IMG/VR virus record: IMGVR_UViG_3300036884_000126
Span: 1-55,580 of that record
Direction: 5' to 3' (one strand)
DNA from: a virus
DNA: 55,580 nucleotides
The notes under the pieces were generated by a model. It made no database searches. It had not been told where the DNA came from and saw nothing but the letters and a program-made list of their open reading frames with translations. Below, piece by piece: positions 2,025 through 31,795 of the stretch. Both the position numbers and the translations under genes were made by a program. The first letter of the stretch is position 1. Each line of letters begins with the position of its first letter.

Positions 2025-3404
2025 GTGCAGAAAGAAGGTTTGAGCAGGTACTGGGGAAGCGTCCAAATGGCCTTGCTCTCCCGGCTCTCGGATGATGATC
2101 TCAGGGCCTTTGGCTTCATCAATGCGGACGGATTGCCCATGCACATGAACCGATCGATAGCTGACAAAGCTATCAGCTTGGTTCATCAGAAGCTAGAACA
2201 GCGCGAGCGGCAGACGACGCCCGCCGCGACCATACAGGGGGAAACACCAGTGGCAAAAACCGTGAAAGAAAAAAACAGGACAGAGAAGGTTGAAACCTTG
2301 CCGGCCGTGGTCGTTGCTCCGGTTGGGCCTCAGCCCATTGTGATCACCAGTGGTGCGCTGGCCGAGCTCGCCAACGCCATTACTGAATCCGTCGGGACAG
2401 CGCTCCATGAAACGATTGACACGGCCATTGAACAGGCCATTGATTACCAGACCATCACGGACGGGCAAAGCTACACCAAGGCATCCGAACACCGGAAGGC
2501 TCTCCGGGGGCTCATTACGACGAAGGGCGATCCCACTGAGCCGGGCAGGCTGCGGGTGCGGGTGACGATGGGCATCATGGATGAGGCAGGGCAAAGGGTA
2601 GCCGTTGCGGCAGAGACGACGATTGGGACGAAATCGGTAGATGATCTGTACGCGCCGCTCTCTGCCCTGCTCGATAAGCTGCACAAGGCAACGACACAGG
2701 GGCGGTCCGAAGTTTCAGGACGCATTGAAGCAGCGCGAAGCCTACTCGAAAGGGCCATCCTCACCTGGGATGATGAGCAGCGAGCCAGGAAGCAAGAAGC
2801 GGAGCGGCTGGAAACGCTACGGCAGGAGCAGGCAGTACGCACGGAGGCCGCGCGGCACTGGATTAACCAACTCTGTGAACACGGAGAGAAGCTTGAATCC
2901 TGTCAGGCCCTCTTAAGCCATCCACTCGATGAGGTTACGGCACCGGAAGTCCGAGCCCTGGAAATGCGGCTGCGGGAAAAGCTTATGGAAGAAGAGAAGG
3001 AGAAGCAGGAAAGAGAGCTTGCGGAAGCCATTGAAACGGCAAAGACCCTGGATATGCCGTTTGGCTTCATCAATGACGTGGTTAAAGAGTTGGAAGAGCA
3101 GAAAGCGGCGCCAGTTGTTATCGAGGCGCCACCGCCCCCCCCGCCTCTGCCTCCTCGTATGGTCGCGCCTGCCGTGGCACAGGCACAAACGCCCAAGATT
3201 TCAGGACAGGGCCGGACGACGCACTATACGCTTCGGATTGATAACCCCCATGAGATTCCGGCTGCATGGTTGCTGCCGCAGAATGACAAGATGTATGACC
3301 CGGATAGCTACCCCCGGCTTCGGGCTGAAGCGCGGCTTCAGGGAATGCAGCTCAAGGTCCCCGGAGTGACGGTTATTCCAGAGCCGAAGCTCACACAACG
3401 CTAA
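2025..3404 (+). CDS. Coiled-coil protein of the recombination module
   Basis: The 459-residue protein starts with GTG at 2025 behind AAAGGAGG. Residues about 150-230 look like a folded domain. Residues about 240-365 are strongly charged heptad-like helices rich in Glu, Arg and Gln. A Pro run lies near 370-378. The C-terminus has HYTLRIDNPHEIPAAWLLP followed by a short Val-Pro-Gly-Val end. That kind of C-terminal tail recurs on phage coiled-coil proteins beside annealing/exonuclease pairs. The function is unknown; a structural or loading role in recombination is plausible. Confidence 0.7.
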   Translation: MQKEGLSRYWGSVQMALLSRLSDDDLRAFGFINADGLPMHMNRSIADKAISLVHQKLEQRERQTTPAATIQGETPVAKTVKEKNRTEKVETLPAVVVAPVGPQPIVITSGALAELANAITESVGTALHETIDTAIEQAIDYQTITDGQSYTKASEHRKALRGLITTKGDPTEPGRLRVRVTMGIMDEAGQRVAVAAETTIGTKSVDDLYAPLSALLDKLHKATTQGRSEVSGRIEAARSLLERAILTWDDEQRARKQEAERLETLRQEQAVRTEAARHWINQLCEHGEKLESCQALLSHPLDEVTAPEVRALEMRLREKLMEEEKEKQERELAEAIETAKTLDMPFGFINDVVKELEEQKAAPVVIEAPPPPPPLPPRMVAPAVAQAQTPKISGQGRTTHYTLRIDNPHEIPAAWLLPQNDKMYDPDSYPRLRAEARLQGMQLKVPGVTVIPEPKLTQR

Positions 3405-21621: not shown

Positions 21622-22470
21622 ATGAAAGCGAAGAAGAGTCCCGACAAGAAGATGACGAAAGCCGCCGCGATGAAAGCGGCCGCCGAAGAAGTGAACGCAC
21701 GCGTCGCGAAGAAGGCCGCACGCAAACCGAATGCGCCCAAAGCCAAGAAACGCGAAGAAGTGGTGGCCATGGCCAGTACGGAAGTGGTCGCCTCTGTAGC
21801 TGCCGTAGCGAACCCACAGACAGCGCTCGCGAAGAAGGAACCAACCGGCCTATTCCACTACGATGCGGCCTGTCGCGAAATTGAACTGGCAAAGACGATG
21901 GATGAGGCGAAAGGCTTTTCAAATAAAGCCGAAGCCATCCGAGTGTATGCGCGGCTGATGGACGATCGGAAGCTGGAAATCGATGCCATAGAAGTTCGCG
22001 GACGCGCAGAGCGGAAGTGGGCCGAGCTGCATGAGGAAGTGAAGGCGAAGGGCGGAGAGCAATATCACGAAGAGGGCACTGGTGCAAAAAAGGAACCAGT
22101 GCTCACCCTAGAAGAGCTGGGCGTGGACAAGAAAGAGAGCGCCGAAGCTCATAAACTCGCCGCGTTGCCGAAAGAAGAGTTCGAGCAGAAGGTTGCAGTC
22201 TGGCGCGAGATCGAAGAGAAGGGCGACGGACACGTCGGCAGACACATCTTAAACGCCGGAAAGAAGAAGCAGGGGCGGCAGCAACGAGAGCGGGCACCAG
22301 CGCCATTCGATGAAGAGAGCCAGCTTGGGCAACTTGCCCATGCATTCCGAAAGGCGGTTGAAAATCTGTGGCCAAAAGAGAGGGATTTAACGCCAGTCAT
22401 CGGTCAGCTGCGCCGTTATGCTGATTACCTTGAAAGCGTGCAGTTGAAAGGGGTGCCCAATGGACAATGA
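21622..22470 (+). CDS. Lys/Ala-rich helical protein of the methyltransferase/ParB-neighbour type
   Basis: The 282-residue protein has an N-terminal 50 residues of Lys/Ala-rich sequence resembling histone-like tails (KKMTKAAAMKAAAEE). From about residue 78 it has YDAACREIELAKTMDEAKGF and KAEAIRVYARLMDDRKLEID, a helical pattern often found fused to, or beside, phage DNA methyltransferases. It ends with a charged helical domain. A DNA-binding or DNA-modification accessory role is plausible. It overlaps the next gene by 11 bases. Confidence 0.6.
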   Translation: MKAKKSPDKKMTKAAAMKAAAEEVNARVAKKAARKPNAPKAKKREEVVAMASTEVVASVAAVANPQTALAKKEPTGLFHYDAACREIELAKTMDEAKGFSNKAEAIRVYARLMDDRKLEIDAIEVRGRAERKWAELHEEVKAKGGEQYHEEGTGAKKEPVLTLEELGVDKKESAEAHKLAALPKEEFEQKVAVWREIEEKGDGHVGRHILNAGKKKQGRQQRERAPAPFDEESQLGQLAHAFRKAVENLWPKERDLTPVIGQLRRYADYLESVQLKGVPNGQ

Positions 22471-23875
22471 AACGGACATGATTTGTCTTGCTCCCAAGGC
22501 GCACATCCTGTACAGCATCGCAGCGCAGAGACTTTCATGGTGGCAAATCTTGTGCGAAGGTATCGACAATTCCTTGGATGCGGGAGCGACGTGGGTTCGG
22601 GTCACTGTACGGGGCAAACGAAGTCTTTCAATTGCTGACGATGGAAGCGGCTGCCAAAACCTCCATGACATGGTGCAGCTCGGGGCAACCACGCGCCACA
22701 AAACGACAAAGCTCGGCCGATACGGCATAGGTCTCAAAGATTTGGCGCTCGTTGCCGGCGGGGCAGATTCGACCTTTCAAGCGAAGACGACTGTTGGTTC
22801 ACTCTTCAGTCAGCTTGAAATAAAGTGGAGTGAATTCGCAAGCAGAGGGTGGATTTTGCCTCGCATAGATCCAGTTAAGACGGAGTCGGTTATGAGCGGC
22901 ACAACGGTGACGATCATTCCACTCCTGAGAAAGTTTCCGGAAGGCAAAGACCTCACAGACTTGATGGATCAAATCGGTTATCTTTTCTCGGCGGCGATTA
23001 AGGCTGGAAAGCAAATCACAGTACAGATAGACAGGGATCCGCCGATCATCGTGCAGCGATGGAAGATGCCGCCGTTGAAACAGTCAGAGCCGATGGTCGA
23101 TCAAGAGATAGAGGTGGGTGGGCAAAAAGCGAGGGTCTATTGTGGAATCGTCGAAGACGGCGCTCCCAATCGCCGCTGTGGACTGACTTATCTCTATGGG
23201 TTCAGGGTCATAATTCCGGCAGGGTCTAGCGGTTGCGGCAACTATAGTCCGGCGCGTATCTGCGGCTTCGTTGAGCTTGATGATTCATGGCCGCTCACAA
23301 AAAATAAGGACTCGATCATCGCGGCGGAGGCACTCTTTGCTGCGGTCGAGCAGGTCTGTCTTCCGGTTTTGAAGCGAGCCGAGGAAATAGGAGAGTTGAT
23401 CTGTTCGGCGGCGTTCGACCATGATGTTACCTGCTTGCTGCGGGGCAGTATGGACGTTAAGGATAATCAGAAAGCTCATCGGCCCGGCTCGGGCGACATA
23501 CGTGGGACAGCGGTTCCAACCGGTAAGGGAGAAGAGCACAAGCGAGCGCGTAAAACTCAGCCTGGGGGGAAGCTGCCACGGCATGACGCGAGCAGCTTCA
23601 GCGTGACACATGGTCATTTGGGAAACGGAACGATTGGACAAGTTAAGTATCCATACATTATTCTCAATTTAGACAACCCGTTTATTGCTCAGGCTCGCAA
23701 GGAAGACAACAAGACGGCAGCGGTACTTGCAGCCGCAACGCTGATCGGTGTCCAATGCTGCCTCGTTCCTAATAGCCAGATGAAGTTGAAATTCTCGGTT
23801 GGAGAACAACCAGAAGACATTTCACGCGCTGTAGGGGAAATTCTGAGCGGAACGATTATAGCCGAGACGGAATGA
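22460..23875 (+). CDS. GHKL-type ATPase (Hsp90/MutL/MORC-like)
   Basis: The 471-residue protein carries the Bergerat fold motifs in order: EGIDNSLDAGATWVRVTV near residues 34-50 (N box), IADDGSGC near 58 (G1, DxGxG), and GATTRHKTTKLGRYGIGLKD near 75-95 (G2 lid). This predicts ATP binding and hydrolysis with ATP-driven dimerisation. The C-terminal half has no recognised domain. Such ATPases act in DNA repair, gyrase-like machines, MORC systems and some defence systems. Its phage role is unknown. It lies just upstream of the packaging genes. Confidence 0.75.
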   Translation: MDNETDMICLAPKAHILYSIAAQRLSWWQILCEGIDNSLDAGATWVRVTVRGKRSLSIADDGSGCQNLHDMVQLGATTRHKTTKLGRYGIGLKDLALVAGGADSTFQAKTTVGSLFSQLEIKWSEFASRGWILPRIDPVKTESVMSGTTVTIIPLLRKFPEGKDLTDLMDQIGYLFSAAIKAGKQITVQIDRDPPIIVQRWKMPPLKQSEPMVDQEIEVGGQKARVYCGIVEDGAPNRRCGLTYLYGFRVIIPAGSSGCGNYSPARICGFVELDDSWPLTKNKDSIIAAEALFAAVEQVCLPVLKRAEEIGELICSAAFDHDVTCLLRGSMDVKDNQKAHRPGSGDIRGTAVPTGKGEEHKRARKTQPGGKLPRHDASSFSVTHGHLGNGTIGQVKYPYIILNLDNPFIAQARKEDNKTAAVLAAATLIGVQCCLVPNSQMKLKFSVGEQPEDISRAVGEILSGTIIAETE

Positions 23876-24941: not shown

Positions 24942-27281
24942 ATGCGCTCGCCTGTGGCCGAGGTTTGCGAGAACGTCGCCCGCATCCTCCAGCCCGGCAA
25001 GCTGGGCGGTGGCATCAACCTGAAGGAGCCGGCGTTCGAAAAGCAGCGGCAGTTCATCGAAGCTACAAACAAGCGTGTCATCGTACGGGCCGGTCGGCGG
25101 GGGGGGAAGACGATCGCGGCTTCAATTCGCGCGGTGCGTGCCTTCCTGTCGGGTCATCGCGTGTTGTATGCGGCGCCAGTCATCGAGCAGATCAACCGCT
25201 TCTGGACGGAAGTCTGCCGGGCGCTTCAGGAGCCGATTGACGCCGGCATCTACTACAAGAACGAAACCCGGCACATGATTGAGTTGAAGGGCACGGAGCA
25301 GGCGATTACCGGCAAGACCGCATGGGATGCTGATTCACTTCGCGGCGACTTCGGGGATCTATTGATCTTGGATGAGTGGCAGTTGATGAACGAAGATGCG
25401 TGGGGCCGGGTTGGGGCGCCGATGCTGCTAGACAACAATGGCGACGCGATGTTCATCTACACGCCGCCGTCGATTCATTCGCGATCGGTGACGAAGGCCG
25501 AAGACCCGCGCCACGCTTCGAAGATGTTCAAGCGGGCTGAGGAGCAAATGGCGGCCGCCGCAGCCGCGGGGAAGGAGAGCCGCTGGCTGGCCATCAGTTG
25601 GCCATCGGATGACAACCCCACGATCTCGGAAACTGCGCTCGCCGAGATCACGCAGGACATGACGGCCCTGTCGTACCGGCAGGAAATCATGGCCGAGGAC
25701 ACCACGGAAGTTCCGGGAGCGCTTTGGAGCCAAGCGTTGATCGACGGCACCCGGGTAGACAAGGCTCCCGCTCTCGTCCGCATCGTCGTGGGGATTGACC
25801 CGAGCGGCAGCTCGACGACCGAGGCGGGAATTGTTGCGGCCGGCATCGACGCCCAGGGGCACGGCTATGTGCTGCGTGACGCTTCACTGCTCGCACCTTC
25901 TCCCGAGCGGTGGGCGGCGGCCGGCATTGAGGCGTATGCAGCGCTGCGGGCGGACCGGATCGTGGCTGAGCGCAATTATGGCGGCGATATGGTCAAATCG
26001 ACGATTCACGCCGTCGATGAGAAAGTCTCTTACCATGATGTGGTCTCGACCCGGGGGAAGATGGTGCGTGCGGAGCCGATCTGCGCCTTCTATGAAAAGG
26101 GAATGATTCATCACGTCGGCGAATTCCCGGAGCTGGAAGACGAGATGTGTTTGTCTGCGGGGACATTGGTCGCGACACTCCGAGGAGATGTTCCAATAGA
26201 ACAAATCAAGACTGGAGATTTTGCTCTTACTCGTCGCGGATTTAGGCCGGTTCTTTGGACTGGATGCACTGGAAGCAAAAATACGCTGACGGTTCAGACA
26301 GTCATCGGGGATATAAGCTGTACCGGTTCTCATCCTCTTGCTATAATCCAGGAGAATTTGAGCTGGAAAAAAGCTCGAGATGCCCGGCCAGGAGATCGGA
26401 TCTTATGCCGCGGAAAGCTATCAGGGAGTGCGTCGAGTTTCGGGGAGAGAAATACTATCGGGCAAGCGATGGCTATTTCAAAACGTCCCATTCTCGCGGC
26501 TGTCGGCTCCTTCATCGCGATGTCTATGAGGCTCATTACGGAGCGATTCCGGCCGCCCATCACATCCATCATGGCGATTGGGATCGATCAAATAATGATC
26601 CCGCAAACCTATTCGCCAAGTCTACAAGGGAGCATAAGCGGATTCACGGACCAAGCGGTGCTTGGGTGGAGCCTCCTGCCGAAAAAAGCCCAAAGAGAAA
26701 AGAAGAATGGAGCCGGAGAGCGCCGCATACGGAAGTTTGCCCTGAATGCAGACGACCATTCGAGACGCGGGGCAACAGGACCATCTTTTGTTCCAGAAAA
26801 TGTCGGGACATCCGTTATCACCGCGATCACCCCGAATGGTATCGCTGAACCTGTGTACAATCTACATGTTGCTGACTCTCCCGAGTTCTTCGCAAACGGA
26901 CTTCTAGTTCACAATTGCTCCTATGTGCCAGGTGCGAAGAGTCCCAATCGAATGGATGCGCTGGTCTTTGCGATGACGGACTTGATGCTTGAGAGCCAGG
27001 CGCTCGGCCTGATAGATTTCCTGAAGGATGGCGGAGCGCAAAAAGTGTTGGACACCATGAACAAGACGGCGCGGGCTACAACGCTTGTGAAGCCGATGAT
27101 CCCGGAGCAAGCACCGACCTGCCCGGAGTGCGGGGCCGTGACCGTGATTCGGGCGGCGGGCGGGAGTTTACACTGCAATCAATGCGGCATCACATGGGCA
27201 GACAAGCAGACGAAGCCCACGGACGGGCACGGCATGACGCGGGGGGAATACCTGATGAAGGCGGATGAGAGGCGCCGATGA
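24942..27281 (+). CDS. terL: Terminase large subunit with in-frame intein
   Basis: The 779-residue precursor encodes the packaging motor. Walker A GRRGGKT is near residues 51-57, Walker B LLILDEWQ near 137-144, and the RNase H-like nuclease starts with VGIDPSG near 284. The intein spans codons 403-658 and interrupts the nuclease between FPELEDEM and CSYVPGAKSPNRMDALVFAM, just before the third catalytic Asp, a highly conserved site. Splicing would give a 523-residue enzyme. The C-terminus adds a zinc ribbon (CPECGAVTVI, LHCNQCG). The frame is open upstream of ATG 24942 to about 24810 without a better start. Confidence 0.9.
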   Translation: MRSPVAEVCENVARILQPGKLGGGINLKEPAFEKQRQFIEATNKRVIVRAGRRGGKTIAASIRAVRAFLSGHRVLYAAPVIEQINRFWTEVCRALQEPIDAGIYYKNETRHMIELKGTEQAITGKTAWDADSLRGDFGDLLILDEWQLMNEDAWGRVGAPMLLDNNGDAMFIYTPPSIHSRSVTKAEDPRHASKMFKRAEEQMAAAAAAGKESRWLAISWPSDDNPTISETALAEITQDMTALSYRQEIMAEDTTEVPGALWSQALIDGTRVDKAPALVRIVVGIDPSGSSTTEAGIVAAGIDAQGHGYVLRDASLLAPSPERWAAAGIEAYAALRADRIVAERNYGGDMVKSTIHAVDEKVSYHDVVSTRGKMVRAEPICAFYEKGMIHHVGEFPELEDEMCLSAGTLVATLRGDVPIEQIKTGDFALTRRGFRPVLWTGCTGSKNTLTVQTVIGDISCTGSHPLAIIQENLSWKKARDARPGDRILCRGKLSGSASSFGERNTIGQAMAISKRPILAAVGSFIAMSMRLITERFRPPITSIMAIGIDQIMIPQTYSPSLQGSISGFTDQAVLGWSLLPKKAQREKKNGAGERRIRKFALNADDHSRRGATGPSFVPENVGTSVITAITPNGIAEPVYNLHVADSPEFFANGLLVHNCSYVPGAKSPNRMDALVFAMTDLMLESQALGLIDFLKDGGAQKVLDTMNKTARATTLVKPMIPEQAPTCPECGAVTVIRAAGGSLHCNQCGITWADKQTKPTDGHGMTRGEYLMKADERRR
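26148..26915 (+). mobile_element. Intein in TerL with nested out-of-frame HNH gene
   Basis: The 256-residue intein starts with Cys (CLSAGTLVATLRGDVPIEQI, block A). Block B is DISCTGSHPLAII with the TxxH pattern. It ends with block F VYNLHVADSPEFFANGLL and block G VHN, followed by Cys as +1 residue. All splicing residues (Cys1, His, penultimate His, terminal Asn, Cys+1) are present. There is no LAGLIDADG domain. The middle about 150 residues in this frame have no recognisable fold; they are the antiphase reading of the HNH gene at 26405-26848. The real protein-splicing parts are the first about 85 and last about 35 residues. Confidence 0.88.
26405..26848 (+). CDS. HNH endonuclease nested in the TerL intein in the -1 frame
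   Basis: The 147-residue product starts at ATG 26405, 12 bases after an AGGAG at 26388-26392. The HNH_3 core is RLLHRDVYEAHYGAIPAAHH, then IHHGDWDRSNNDPANLF with the His-Asn pair, then STREHKRIH with the last His. A C-terminal zinc ribbon follows (VCPECRRPFETRG, TIFCSRKCRDIRYHR). It lies entirely inside the intein but in the -1 frame relative to TerL, and the TerL frame is open throughout. It is the likely homing enzyme for this intein. Expression may come from its own start or from a frameshift near the A6 run at 26367-26372. Confidence 0.85.
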   Translation: MPRKAIRECVEFRGEKYYRASDGYFKTSHSRGCRLLHRDVYEAHYGAIPAAHHIHHGDWDRSNNDPANLFAKSTREHKRIHGPSGAWVEPPAEKSPKRKEEWSRRAPHTEVCPECRRPFETRGNRTIFCSRKCRDIRYHRDHPEWYR

Positions 27282-28420: not shown

Positions 28421-28492
28421 GAAGGCTGACTGATTCCGTTCTCGGCCCTTTCCCAGGGACAGAACGCTGGAGTGCTGAAGCGCAGGACCAAT

Positions 28493-28533
28493 AGGCCCGC
28501 TCGGCTGCAAGGCTGGGCGGGCCTTTTGGTTTT
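28493..28533 (+). terminator. Rho-independent terminator-like hairpin before the portal start
   Basis: AGGCCCGC at 28493-28500 pairs perfectly with GCGGGCCT at 28517-28524 around a 16-base loop, followed by TTTTGGTTTT. The hairpin ends only ten bases before ATG 28535, covering its ribosome-binding region. It could terminate the upstream transcript or act as an attenuator of portal translation. Confidence 0.55.
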
Positions 28534-28534
28534 G

Positions 28535-31500
28535 ATGGCCAACAGTACCTCGCTCGCAATTCGACCGCTCGGCCAGCTCGTAGCATCACTATCCCGCTAC
28601 GGCCAACAACTCTATCAACCTCCGAAAGATACGATCCGCGGCGTCGAGCCCGATACGTGGTATTCCCCCCTGCAACCCGTCAAGCCGATTGGGCCGCCTG
28701 GTATCGAGCCGCGCGGCTTTCAGTATTATGCAGGGCAAAACCTGTTCTGGACTCCTCGCGCGGACGCGGAGTATTGCCTGTCACCAGAGACGCGTGTATT
28801 AAAGGCTGACCTGTCTTGGATCGCCGTTTCCGAGTTACGCGTTGGAGACGCGCTAGTTGGATTTGAAGAAGAGAGTACTGGTGGTCATCCCAGGAGTTAT
28901 AAAAAATCCATCGTTACATCCATAGGTATCGCTAATCTTCCATGTCACGATTTGATATTCGAGGATGGCTCAAGGGTGCGCGCATCGGATAAGCACTTGT
29001 GGCTGGCTAAAAGACAACAGGCTTCCAAGTTGGAGTGGATCGCCACAAAGGATCTTAGTCCGGTCAAGAAAAATGACAGTTTTATACGCGTGCTTAAGCC
29101 CTTGGAACCTTGGCGATTTGATGACAGTAGGGATGCCGGATACTTGGCTGCCGCTTTTGACGGAGAAGGGCATCTGCGAAAAAACATTCGCATGGGATTC
29201 GCTCAGAAATCGAATGCCATGCTGAACGCCGTGATTGGATTTCTAGGAGATAGGAATTTCAATTCCACTGTCAAGCGGCGATCCCTGTGGGACGTGACCG
29301 AACTCGAAATCCTTGGAAGAGAAGAAGTTCTTCGGTTTTTGGGTTCCATTCGGCCCTTGCGCCTTTTGAGCAAATTCGATCCCGACAACCTCGGCGAATT
29401 GCGTTCAAGAAACAGCGTAGCGATACGGTTGAAGACTCCTGTTGGCAATCAACGGGTAATTACGATTGGAACAAGCACCAAAACATTAATTGCGGAAGGG
29501 TTCGCTTCACACAATTCAGCCGCGGACCTCAAGCAACTGGCGACATATCCCCTCGCCCGCATCGCCATCGAGAACGTCAAGGATTCGATGTGCATGGCGA
29601 ACTGGAAAATTCAACCCAAGCCGGCGCCCGGAGAGAGCCCTAAGGCGGCGATGAAGCGAGGGATTGGCGACAAGAACCTGGTGAAGCTCAACCGATTGTT
29701 CGAGATGCCCGACCGCGAGCATACCTGGCCGGAATGGTTGCGTCCGCTTTTGGAAGATATGCTGGTGATCGACGCCTGGACGATTCTCATCCGCAAGACG
29801 TTCTCGGGAGAGGTTGTGGAGTTGCCGGTCCTCCGGGGTGATAGCATCGTCCGTTACATCGACGAGAACGGGTGGACGCCGATGGCGCCCGAGCCGGCCT
29901 ACGCGCAACTCTGGTGGGGTCTCCCTCTCGTCAACCTTTCCACCGATCAGCTTATTTACAAGCCCCGCAACATCGTCCCGCGCAACACGATCTCCTCCCA
30001 ACTCTACGGCATGAGCCCGACCGAAGAGCTTGCTCGAGAGATCCAGATTGGCATGAAGCGGCTGGAGTTCACGCTGGCCTATTATACGGAAGGTTCAATC
30101 CCCGGCGTCGTGCAAGTCGTGCCGAAAGGCATCCCCGTGGAGAAGATCGCCGAGGCCATGCAGTGGATGAACTCTGAGCTTGCCGGGAATCTGGCGAAGC
30201 GGCGCCAGTGGCAACTTATCCAGGGATGGAAGGATGATGGCAAGGATGAGCAGATCATCTTCTCGAAGGAGCAATTACTGGCCGACCCCTTCGATGAACT
30301 GCATATCCGCAAGGTCGCCTACGGCTACGGGATCTCTCCGCAGCGCCTGGCTCGCCAGATGAATCGAGCTTCAGCCGAAGCATCCCAGGAAGCCTCTGAG
30401 GTTGAGGGGTTGATGCCCTACTTCTCCTCGCTCAAAAGCCTCATCGACTTCATCGTCCAGCGCAAGATGGGCTATGCCGACTACGAGATGATGTTGGAGC
30501 CGCTGGTTGAGCCAGATCAAGTTAAGCAATCCCAGGTGCTTACGGCCTACGTCAAGGAGGCCATCATCACCCGGGAAGAGGCGCGCGAGAAGCTTGGTGA
30601 GGAGCCATCGGGAGTGCCTGAAGCTGGCCAGCTAATGGTGACAACCGGGCAGGGCGCGGTGCCCCTGGGCGCGACCACGCAGCCGGCCGCCAAGCCGGGA
30701 GAGGAAGGAGCAGCCGATGGAATTCCTGATAAAGGAAAGGGTGGAGCGGGAGCATCGGGAAGCGATGAAGAGCTTGACGCCGATGGAAACCTCGTCGTTG
30801 CTGACGGTCGCGGCAAGCCCCGCAAGCCTGCCAGCACCAACAAGCCCAACGGGGGCGCGGCGGCGAAAGCGAAAACGCAGAACCGGCCTATTGGGTTCGC
30901 GGCTGGAACCGTGATCGTCGAGCTGGAACCTCCGCAGTATGGAGTTCTTGAAATTCACGAGGAGGCCCTGGTTAAGGCAAAGCCACGGGCGAAGGATCCG
31001 CCCGTCATCCATCCGGGCCGGATGGCGCCGGCGTCGATCCTTGGAAAACACAAGCTGGAGCGAGACCTCACGAAAATCTTCCGCACCATGCACCGGAAGA
31101 CGACAAAAGTCATGGCTGCGGCCCTGGGCCTTGCGCACGGGCATTTGGCAAAGGCCGAGCCGGACGCCGATATGACCCTGCGGCAGGCCATGGACAGTCT
31201 TGCCGCCGAGTGGGAAACGATTGCCCGGTTGGCAAGGAAGCCCCTCACGGATGCAGCCCTGGCAGGTGCTTCCAAGGGCAGTCTCGAACTGGAGATTTCA
31301 GCCGAGGACATGCTGACCGGCATCAATGAGACGGCGCGTGACTGGGCTTCAAACCGGGCGGCCGAGTTGGTGGGGATGCTGCGCACGCCCGAGGGCGAGC
31401 TCATCGCGAACCCGAACGCGAAATGGGCCATCAGCGACACGACGCGCGAAAAGCTGCGCTCCGTTATTGCGGACGTGTTCGGGCAAGAGGGCAAGATCAC

Positions 31501-31795
31501 GCTACGCGACGTGGAGAACCGGATCGAGCAATCGGGAGTTTTCTCAGACGTGAGGGCTTCGACGATCGCACGAAACGAGATTGCCCGGGCGCAGACTCAG
31601 GGGAACTTGATGTCCTGGCAGGAATCAGGGCTGGTGCAGAAGGTCGCATGGAAAACATCGGACGATCACGACCAAAGCGATATTTGCGATGAGCTGGAGA
31701 AAGACGGTCCGTACGACGTCGACGACGTGCCGGACCTGCCGGCCCACCCGAACTGCTTGTGCGCCCTGATTTTAACGGAGGCTGAGGAGCAATAA
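28535..31795 (+). CDS. Portal protein fused to a MuF-type head protein, with intein
   Basis: The 1086-residue precursor has four parts: a portal N-terminus (residues 1-80), an intein (81-327), the rest of the portal domain (to about 690), and a Pro/Gly/Ala linker followed by a MuF-type head-morphogenesis domain from about 835. Portal hallmarks include NIVPRNTISSQLYGMSPTEE and KVAYGYGISPQRLARQMNRA. The MuF end has TIARNEIARAQTQGN, then VAWKTSDDHDQSDICDELE and LPAHPNCLCALI. Portal and MuF are usually separate genes. ATG 28535 lacks a ribosome site because a hairpin sits there; GTG 28472 in frame is an alternative. Confidence 0.88.
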   Translation: MANSTSLAIRPLGQLVASLSRYGQQLYQPPKDTIRGVEPDTWYSPLQPVKPIGPPGIEPRGFQYYAGQNLFWTPRADAEYCLSPETRVLKADLSWIAVSELRVGDALVGFEEESTGGHPRSYKKSIVTSIGIANLPCHDLIFEDGSRVRASDKHLWLAKRQQASKLEWIATKDLSPVKKNDSFIRVLKPLEPWRFDDSRDAGYLAAAFDGEGHLRKNIRMGFAQKSNAMLNAVIGFLGDRNFNSTVKRRSLWDVTELEILGREEVLRFLGSIRPLRLLSKFDPDNLGELRSRNSVAIRLKTPVGNQRVITIGTSTKTLIAEGFASHNSAADLKQLATYPLARIAIENVKDSMCMANWKIQPKPAPGESPKAAMKRGIGDKNLVKLNRLFEMPDREHTWPEWLRPLLEDMLVIDAWTILIRKTFSGEVVELPVLRGDSIVRYIDENGWTPMAPEPAYAQLWWGLPLVNLSTDQLIYKPRNIVPRNTISSQLYGMSPTEELAREIQIGMKRLEFTLAYYTEGSIPGVVQVVPKGIPVEKIAEAMQWMNSELAGNLAKRRQWQLIQGWKDDGKDEQIIFSKEQLLADPFDELHIRKVAYGYGISPQRLARQMNRASAEASQEASEVEGLMPYFSSLKSLIDFIVQRKMGYADYEMMLEPLVEPDQVKQSQVLTAYVKEAIITREEAREKLGEEPSGVPEAGQLMVTTGQGAVPLGATTQPAAKPGEEGAADGIPDKGKGGAGASGSDEELDADGNLVVADGRGKPRKPASTNKPNGGAAAKAKTQNRPIGFAAGTVIVELEPPQYGVLEIHEEALVKAKPRAKDPPVIHPGRMAPASILGKHKLERDLTKIFRTMHRKTTKVMAAALGLAHGHLAKAEPDADMTLRQAMDSLAAEWETIARLARKPLTDAALAGASKGSLELEISAEDMLTGINETARDWASNRAAELVGMLRTPEGELIANPNAKWAISDTTREKLRSVIADVFGQEGKITLRDVENRIEQSGVFSDVRASTIARNEIARAQTQGNLMSWQESGLVQKVAWKTSDDHDQSDICDELEKDGPYDVDDVPDLPAHPNCLCALILTEAEEQ
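28775..29515 (+). mobile_element. Intein in the portal gene with LAGLIDADG-like motif
   Basis: The 247-residue intein begins CLSPETRVLKADLSWIAVSE (block A, Cys1). Block B is GSRVRASDKHLWL with an SxxH variant of TxxH. A LAGLIDADG-like motif, DAGYLAAAFDGEGHL, lies near intein residue 115, followed by a helical segment ending VLRFLGSIRPLR. It ends VITIGTSTKTLIAEGFASHN, with Ser as +1 residue. The endonuclease seems to have one clear motif and may be a minimal or dimeric type. All residues for splicing appear present. Confidence 0.87.

Follow-up and report, generated by a model that had tools for sequence, protein, structure and literature searches.

Inteins normally combine a splicing domain with a homing endonuclease fused in the same reading frame. 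The terL gene of the virus record IMGVR_UViG_3300036884_000126 raises the question of how an intein can carry its nuclease when the host frame holds splicing blocks only and the same bases encode an HNH enzyme in another frame. The window analyzed here is the whole 55,580-nucleotide stretch of that record, in which the following features are relevant:

24942 to 27281, plus strand: terL (large terminase), intein-containing, one open frame (ORF; intein-free relatives L011-L015)
26148 to 26915, plus strand: intein of 256 aa, from C1 to a final H-N, then Cys +1 at 26916
26148 to 26417, plus strand: N-terminal splicing half, residues 1-90, Hint fold (pLDDT 93-98)
26390 to 26394, plus strand: Shine-Dalgarno-like AGGAG, 10 nt 5' of the HNH ATG
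26405 to 26848, plus strand: putative HNH_3 homing-endonuclease gene in the -1 frame, 147 aa plus stop (Pfam HNH_3, four-Cys ribbon)
26418 to 26801, plus strand: antiphase linker in the TerL frame, residues 91-218, stop-free, unconserved and mostly disordered by prediction
26567 to 26635, plus strand: HNH catalytic motif, H55-H56 ... N64, N68 ... H77 in HNH numbering (columns near-invariant, 116-117 of 118)
26738 to 26803, plus strand: zinc ribbon of the HNH protein, C112, C115, C129 and C133 (four Cys in near-invariant columns)
26802 to 26915, plus strand: C-terminal splicing half, residues 219-256, blocks F and G (pLDDT 95-97; TIGR01443)

Comparison of both frames with Pfam, a check proposed in the original prediction, placed Hint/intein families in the TerL frame and HNH_3 in the -1 frame. 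In line with the predicted intein with splicing blocks at 26148-26915, the TerL ORF (24942-27281) matched Terminase_6C, Hint_2, Intein_splicing and intein_Cterm (TIGR01443), with the Intein_splicing score of the window intein (35.2) falling marginally under the curated cut-off of 35.8. The insert extends from C1 at 26148 to N256, which ends at 26915 (768 nt), with splicing halves of 90 and 38 aa, and contains the residues of a class 1 intein, i.e., Cys1, the TxxH of block B, a terminal Asn and a +1 Cys. Judged by these residues, it is a complete class-1-like intein, presumably active in splicing. The TerL frame runs unbroken from 24942 to 27281 and, as had been stated, has no stop over the HNH region; this is not the layout of a fractured gene.

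The flanks of the intein match intact TerL as found in five relatives with an empty site (L011-L015; 80-92% identity, best segment), and dozens of other TerL relatives likewise lack the insert. The suggested alignment to TerL genes with and without an intein also yielded two divergent inteins (L016 and L019; approximately 30% identity, one of them AT-rich) at the same TerL site as in the window. In both, the TerL frame is open and an HNH lies in the -1 frame, with its own start and a GGAG 5' of it.

HNH_3 was matched by the -1 frame only, and not by the host frame where a canonical intein has its nuclease, in agreement with the claim that the TerL frame carries no homing domain. The nested ORF, in frame +2 (equivalent to -1) relative to TerL, has its ATG at 26405 and a stop that ends at 26848. 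Its match to HNH_3 (E 5e-13; 48.8 bits compared to a cut-off of 24.8), HNH motif and four zinc-binding Cys are those of an HNH homing endonuclease, as foreseen for 26405-26848. The closest solved relative is I-HmuI, the best PDB match both by sequence and by fold, and the protein was modeled by AlphaFold with a mean pLDDT of 90.9. For the intein, residues 1-90 and 219-256 were predicted with pLDDT values of about 93-98, while the overlap was mostly at 40-53. Foldseek matched the model to inteins including gp41-1, Ssp DnaB and Mtu RecA (TMt mostly 0.7-0.85), which together with the AlphaFold model identifies a Hint fold.

The distribution of this layout was analyzed in several sets of loci. An extein-based search for TerL relatives recovered it in three divergent lineages. 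Since no named phage was matched by the intein in blastn, protein searches were needed to find it in Tetrasphaera phage TJE1, Acinetobacter phage Highwayman and Rhodobacteraceae phage LS06-2018-MD07, in all three of which the HNH had been left unannotated. A search with the intein alignment provided 80 viral loci (the best 80 of 577 confirmed viral relatives) and 26 genome loci; nearly all of these were overprinted and the remainder were mini-inteins, with the HNH in the -1 frame at every HNH-bearing locus. The main searches were ranked by intein similarity, and ranking favours good matches; the controls seeded with mini-inteins and with the HNH reduce this bias but were ranked as well. The mini-intein-seeded search returned 68 HNH-bearing loci, all with the HNH in -1 and an open host frame, and 12 mini-inteins among 80 ranked loci. 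The intein- and mini-intein-seeded searches together gave 186 HNH-bearing intein loci, 142 of them distinct, all in the -1 frame; related loci are not statistically independent. Among the 80 ranked loci of the HNH-seeded search, 65 were overprinted, 62 by an automatic rule and three by reading (L341, L345 and L348), and the others comprised ten fractured TerL genes and five loci with no intein detected. A homologous HNH in frame was found in no contiguous intein of the intein-, mini-intein- and HNH-seeded sets. Redundancy was removed at 80-90% nucleotide identity, and three loci with other inteins (L046, L092 and L280) were left out.

Almost all of the exteins are those of terminase large subunits, which are interrupted at at least ten distinct positions that lie mostly near the nuclease active-site motif (with a slash at the insertion point, NH/CxDAxRY, HA/CDAxRY, LEDxM/C, RLDA/CVWA and W/CDE). 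The layout also occurred on the haloarchaeal plasmid pGSL19_54.9 and in a human-gut phage clone. Based on these sequences, the overprinted TerL intein is a widespread, frame-locked class.

Next, the constraint on each frame was determined. Inside the HNH region of 91 non-redundant HNH-bearing loci (14,363 codons), no TerL-frame stop was present, compared to 200 expected from synonymous reshuffling of the HNH codons, an expectation that retains the HNH's own codon usage and is hence conservative. The unused third frame contained 1313 stops over the same regions, and the relative frame was identical in 91/91 loci. The mini-intein-seeded set behaved likewise (0 stops vs. 76 expected). A TerL frame left open by chance is ruled out by the stop counts at the 91 loci together with the constant relative frame.

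Substitutions followed the same division. When 29 independent pairs were compared, the N half showed differences of.18/.15/.34 at the three TerL codon positions, the overlap.16/.37/.19 and the C half.12/.09/.37, i.e., the wobble position shifts to the HNH frame exactly over the HNH gene. Over the overlap, amino acid identity was 0.736 for the HNH frame, compared with 0.536 for the TerL frame and 0.528 for the unused one; the N half reached 0.724 in the TerL frame. Since the TerL-frame identity in the overlap equals that of the unused frame, the linker is constrained only to stay stop-free. C1, TxxH and the terminal Asn were present in 118/118 non-redundant relatives, with C or S at +1, and the HNH catalytic residues were kept in approximately 116 of the 118. 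These patterns indicate two intact, separately conserved coding frames, a frame lock and a stop-free linker.

The original prediction had taken the antiphase reading of the HNH to be the central linker of the intein, with splicing and homing functions overprinted. The first part is borne out by the absence of stops and the unconserved TerL-frame peptide, and the second, as far as sequence can tell, by Hint and HNH families that appear intact in two frames. Conservation of a TerL-frame fold across the overlap, which would have contradicted it, is ruled out by the low pLDDT and by an identity close to that of the unused frame. Given the stop-free lock, a TerL frame that evolves like the unused one and the disordered middle, the insert is a mini-intein with a shadow loop: the linker is a mere stop-free shadow of the nested HNH gene in a permissive loop.

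We therefore consider it very probable that terL harbours a mobile intein whose homing endonuclease is encoded by a nested gene in the -1 frame and not by an in-frame domain. In this model, ribosomes on terL would produce a TerL precursor, from which the insert would excise itself, its residues 1-90 and 219-256 forming a Hint mini-intein; the middle would be an unstructured loop with the sole requirement of being stop-free. A separate HNH endonuclease, able to cut intein-free terL at the insertion site, would come from ribosomes that initiate at the internal ATG, and repair of the cut gene would copy the whole intein in.

How the HNH is expressed was addressed through its start region. A start codon in the HNH frame was found within a narrow zone at 88/91 loci, and the density of HNH-frame ATGs in this zone was 5 times that in the gene body (p 6e-32). 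The ATG lies exactly 218 nt from Cys1 in 44/118 loci. At this offset it overlaps a Trp codon, and the residue before it varies while the third base of that residue's codon stays A; an A before TGG was observed in 55/70 HNH-bearing inteins vs. 4/14 mini-inteins, which suggests that the ATG at offset 218 may be under selection. In the window, the AGGAG upstream of the start falls within the codons of a Pro-Gly-Asp turn of the intein. Shine-Dalgarno-like motifs were approximately 2-fold enriched (18% vs. 9%) and missing from many loci, so initiation may use coupling or other signals.

We also weighed programmed -1 ribosomal frameshifting within the intein, which would generate an N-extein-IntN-HNH fusion and no separate HNH protein. 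Canonical slippery heptamers do occur in the TerL phase at 33/138 loci, compared to 16 in other phases, but they are missing from the other 105, their position is not fixed, and none lies directly 5' of the HNH in the window. Further, many loci have an HNH-frame stop just 2-20 codons upstream, where start codons cluster, and the constant -1 frame, which such a mechanism would also entail, is accounted for by common descent. We consider frameshifting improbable. Clustered start codons and unconserved heptamers make internal initiation the best reading, and the HNH is most likely made in this way.

With regard to mobility, distances between HNHs and between inteins were correlated (Mantel r 0.64; permutation maximum 0.11), and the nearest HNH relative resided at the same TerL insertion site in 67/88 cases vs. 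29 expected. Intein and HNH co-evolve and are co-inherited, with a disjunct distribution, and the agreement between HNH relatedness and insertion site is an indirect hint that the HNH may cut the empty site. The TerL exteins of the window (24942-26147 and 26916-27281) are mosaic, the 5' part being nearest L011 and the 3' part nearest L013, with the changeover near the intein. Identity to L011 was mostly 78-95% in the first 1000 nt and about 73% thereafter, and identity to L013 was 98-99% from approximately 100 nt beyond the insertion site. Such a mosaic would be expected from recombination near a cut site.

Mini-inteins of 124-171 aa without an HNH (L091, L193, L198 and others) were found mostly in TerL and at similar sites. 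They are scattered among the HNH-bearing inteins (16 changes for 19 mini-inteins) and look like repeated HNH losses. One overprinted intein (L192:923-1564) has an internal deletion of the HNH core with the host frame still open, and is probably a decay intermediate towards a mini-intein. The scattered mini-inteins and this deletion imply that HNH loss happens, and both would suit the alternative that the HNH is a decaying passenger and the mini-intein alone is functional today. However, the HNH retains its wobble pattern and 74% amino acid identity in its own frame, its catalytic residues are near-invariant and the window ORF is intact; this alternative is thus, if anything, slightly less probable than frameshifting.

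A self-splicing RNA intron with an endonuclease gene, in place of an intein, is highly improbable: phage group I introns commonly harbour HNH endonuclease genes, but no group I/II intron RNA was matched by Rfam in the window at gathering thresholds, the host frame is open in all contiguous loci and every intein splicing residue is conserved. Least credible of all is a sequencing or assembly frameshift in a normal intein, for which only the rule of in-frame endonucleases speaks, since three further contigs of IMG/VR, which come from different datasets and were independently assembled, are identical across the 768 nt of the intein, two frameshifts would be required, and finished phage genomes as well as approximately 140 distinct sequences share the layout; the frameshift that could have restored the HNH to the TerL frame is thus discarded.

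Compared to known systems, the nested-gene intein resembles canonical LAGLIDADG or HNH inteins in its Hint domain, its splicing residues and a nuclease between blocks B and F; in these, however, the nuclease is in frame, whereas here it is a separate -1 gene and the in-frame peptide is unconserved. The window provides its own contrast, as the portal gene (28472-31795) holds a second, canonical intein at 28775-29515, with an in-frame LAGLIDADG_3, running from Cys1 to Asn and followed by Ser+1. Mini-inteins lack the overprinted insert that the window intein has. I-HmuI-type phage HNHs (PHROG 15471) share the HNH fold and motif but are intron-encoded or free-standing, not overprinted on an intein. 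Dassa et al. reportedly described, in 2009, fractured genes with split inteins and a homing-endonuclease ORF between IntN and IntC. Two inteins of such genes, gp41-1 and NrdJ-1, are among the closest solved inteins to the window intein by sequence, and their halves are similar in size to its 90 + 38 aa; their host frames are broken, in contrast to the continuous one of the window, where splicing would take place in cis.

The nearest published precedent is the ShiLan domain, an out-of-frame HNH in a mycobacteriophage DNA methylase (Arsenault, Gosselin, Gogarten 2025, PMC11855218), for which neither intein, intron nor RBS was found and whose host gene is non-essential (PMC11855218). Both elements are out-of-frame HNHs that leave a phage host gene open, but the ShiLan domain lies in a methylase without a splicing domain, whereas the window HNH is enclosed by a full Hint intein in terL. 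Phage Applejack also has an out-of-frame HNH in a methylase (PMC12613952), and a 2016 survey located mycobacteriophage TerL inteins in the ATPase domain (PMC5050341). In the literature searched, no intein was described in which a nuclease gene read in a different frame makes up the loop. The belief that the layout was undescribed holds to that extent, but not for out-of-frame HNHs without an intein, which PMC11855218 had already reported. Moreover, the preprint 10.1101/2025.01.02.630785 ('Non-Canonical Architecture'), cited in that literature and concerned with non-canonical actinophage inteins, could pre-empt part of the finding, so that priority for the overprinted layout is unsettled.

Fractured TerL genes with an HNH of the window's family (L308, L309, L320, L321, L332, L334, L335, L336, L351 and L354), located mostly at the NH/C site, consist of an IntN that ends in a stop, an HNH ORF and a separate ORF with IntC and the C-extein. 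Here the HNH takes any frame relative to IntN (0, +1 or +2), which indicates that the frame is locked only when translation of the host gene has to continue across the insert. In the midpoint-rooted HNH tree, the fractured forms fall into one main clade, with a few singletons interspersed among the overprinted ones; the two kinds appear to be related, with a direction that this tree does not prove. Fracture could have occurred through one stop in the unconstrained antiphase linker, where the nuclease gene already lay, giving IntN, a free-standing HNH and IntC, whereupon the frame lock would be released. That frame-locked overprinted inteins are both a major, general class of phage inteins and the ancestral state of split inteins and fractured genes is possible, although we rate it a little short of an even chance. 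Split inteins are widely used protein tools whose origin is debated, and the overprinted forms would, if this holds, offer a possible path to them.

In many TerL inteins, splicing and endonuclease functions thus appear to be assigned to separate genes that overlap on the same DNA. The intein loop would tolerate nearly arbitrary sequence, and the overprinted loci represent a large natural data set on the evolution of overlapping genes.

Several further observations were made at these loci. At L172, on a Methanimicrococcus contig, a TAG at position 3269 is the sole TerL-frame stop among the contiguous overprinted inteins of the first set, and its HNH likewise ends in TAG, at 3262; Methanimicrococcus belongs to a methanogen lineage known for pyrrolysine, and the TAG at 3269 is possibly read as Pyl. 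Four loci (L082, L084, L085 and L086) have a different insertion elsewhere in TerL, apparently a canonical intein with an in-frame LAGLIDADG-like domain. In Campylobacter phage IBB_35 (L092), three inteins are annotated in the gene for ribonucleotide reductase, and the middle one is fractured by stops that surround a separate ORF. In the window, the TerL C-extein closes with a zinc ribbon like that of ribosomal L37ae (27117-27209), an unusual C-terminus for a terminase, and an ORF at 22460-23875 resembles a GHKL-type ATPase by its motifs, as judged by eye.
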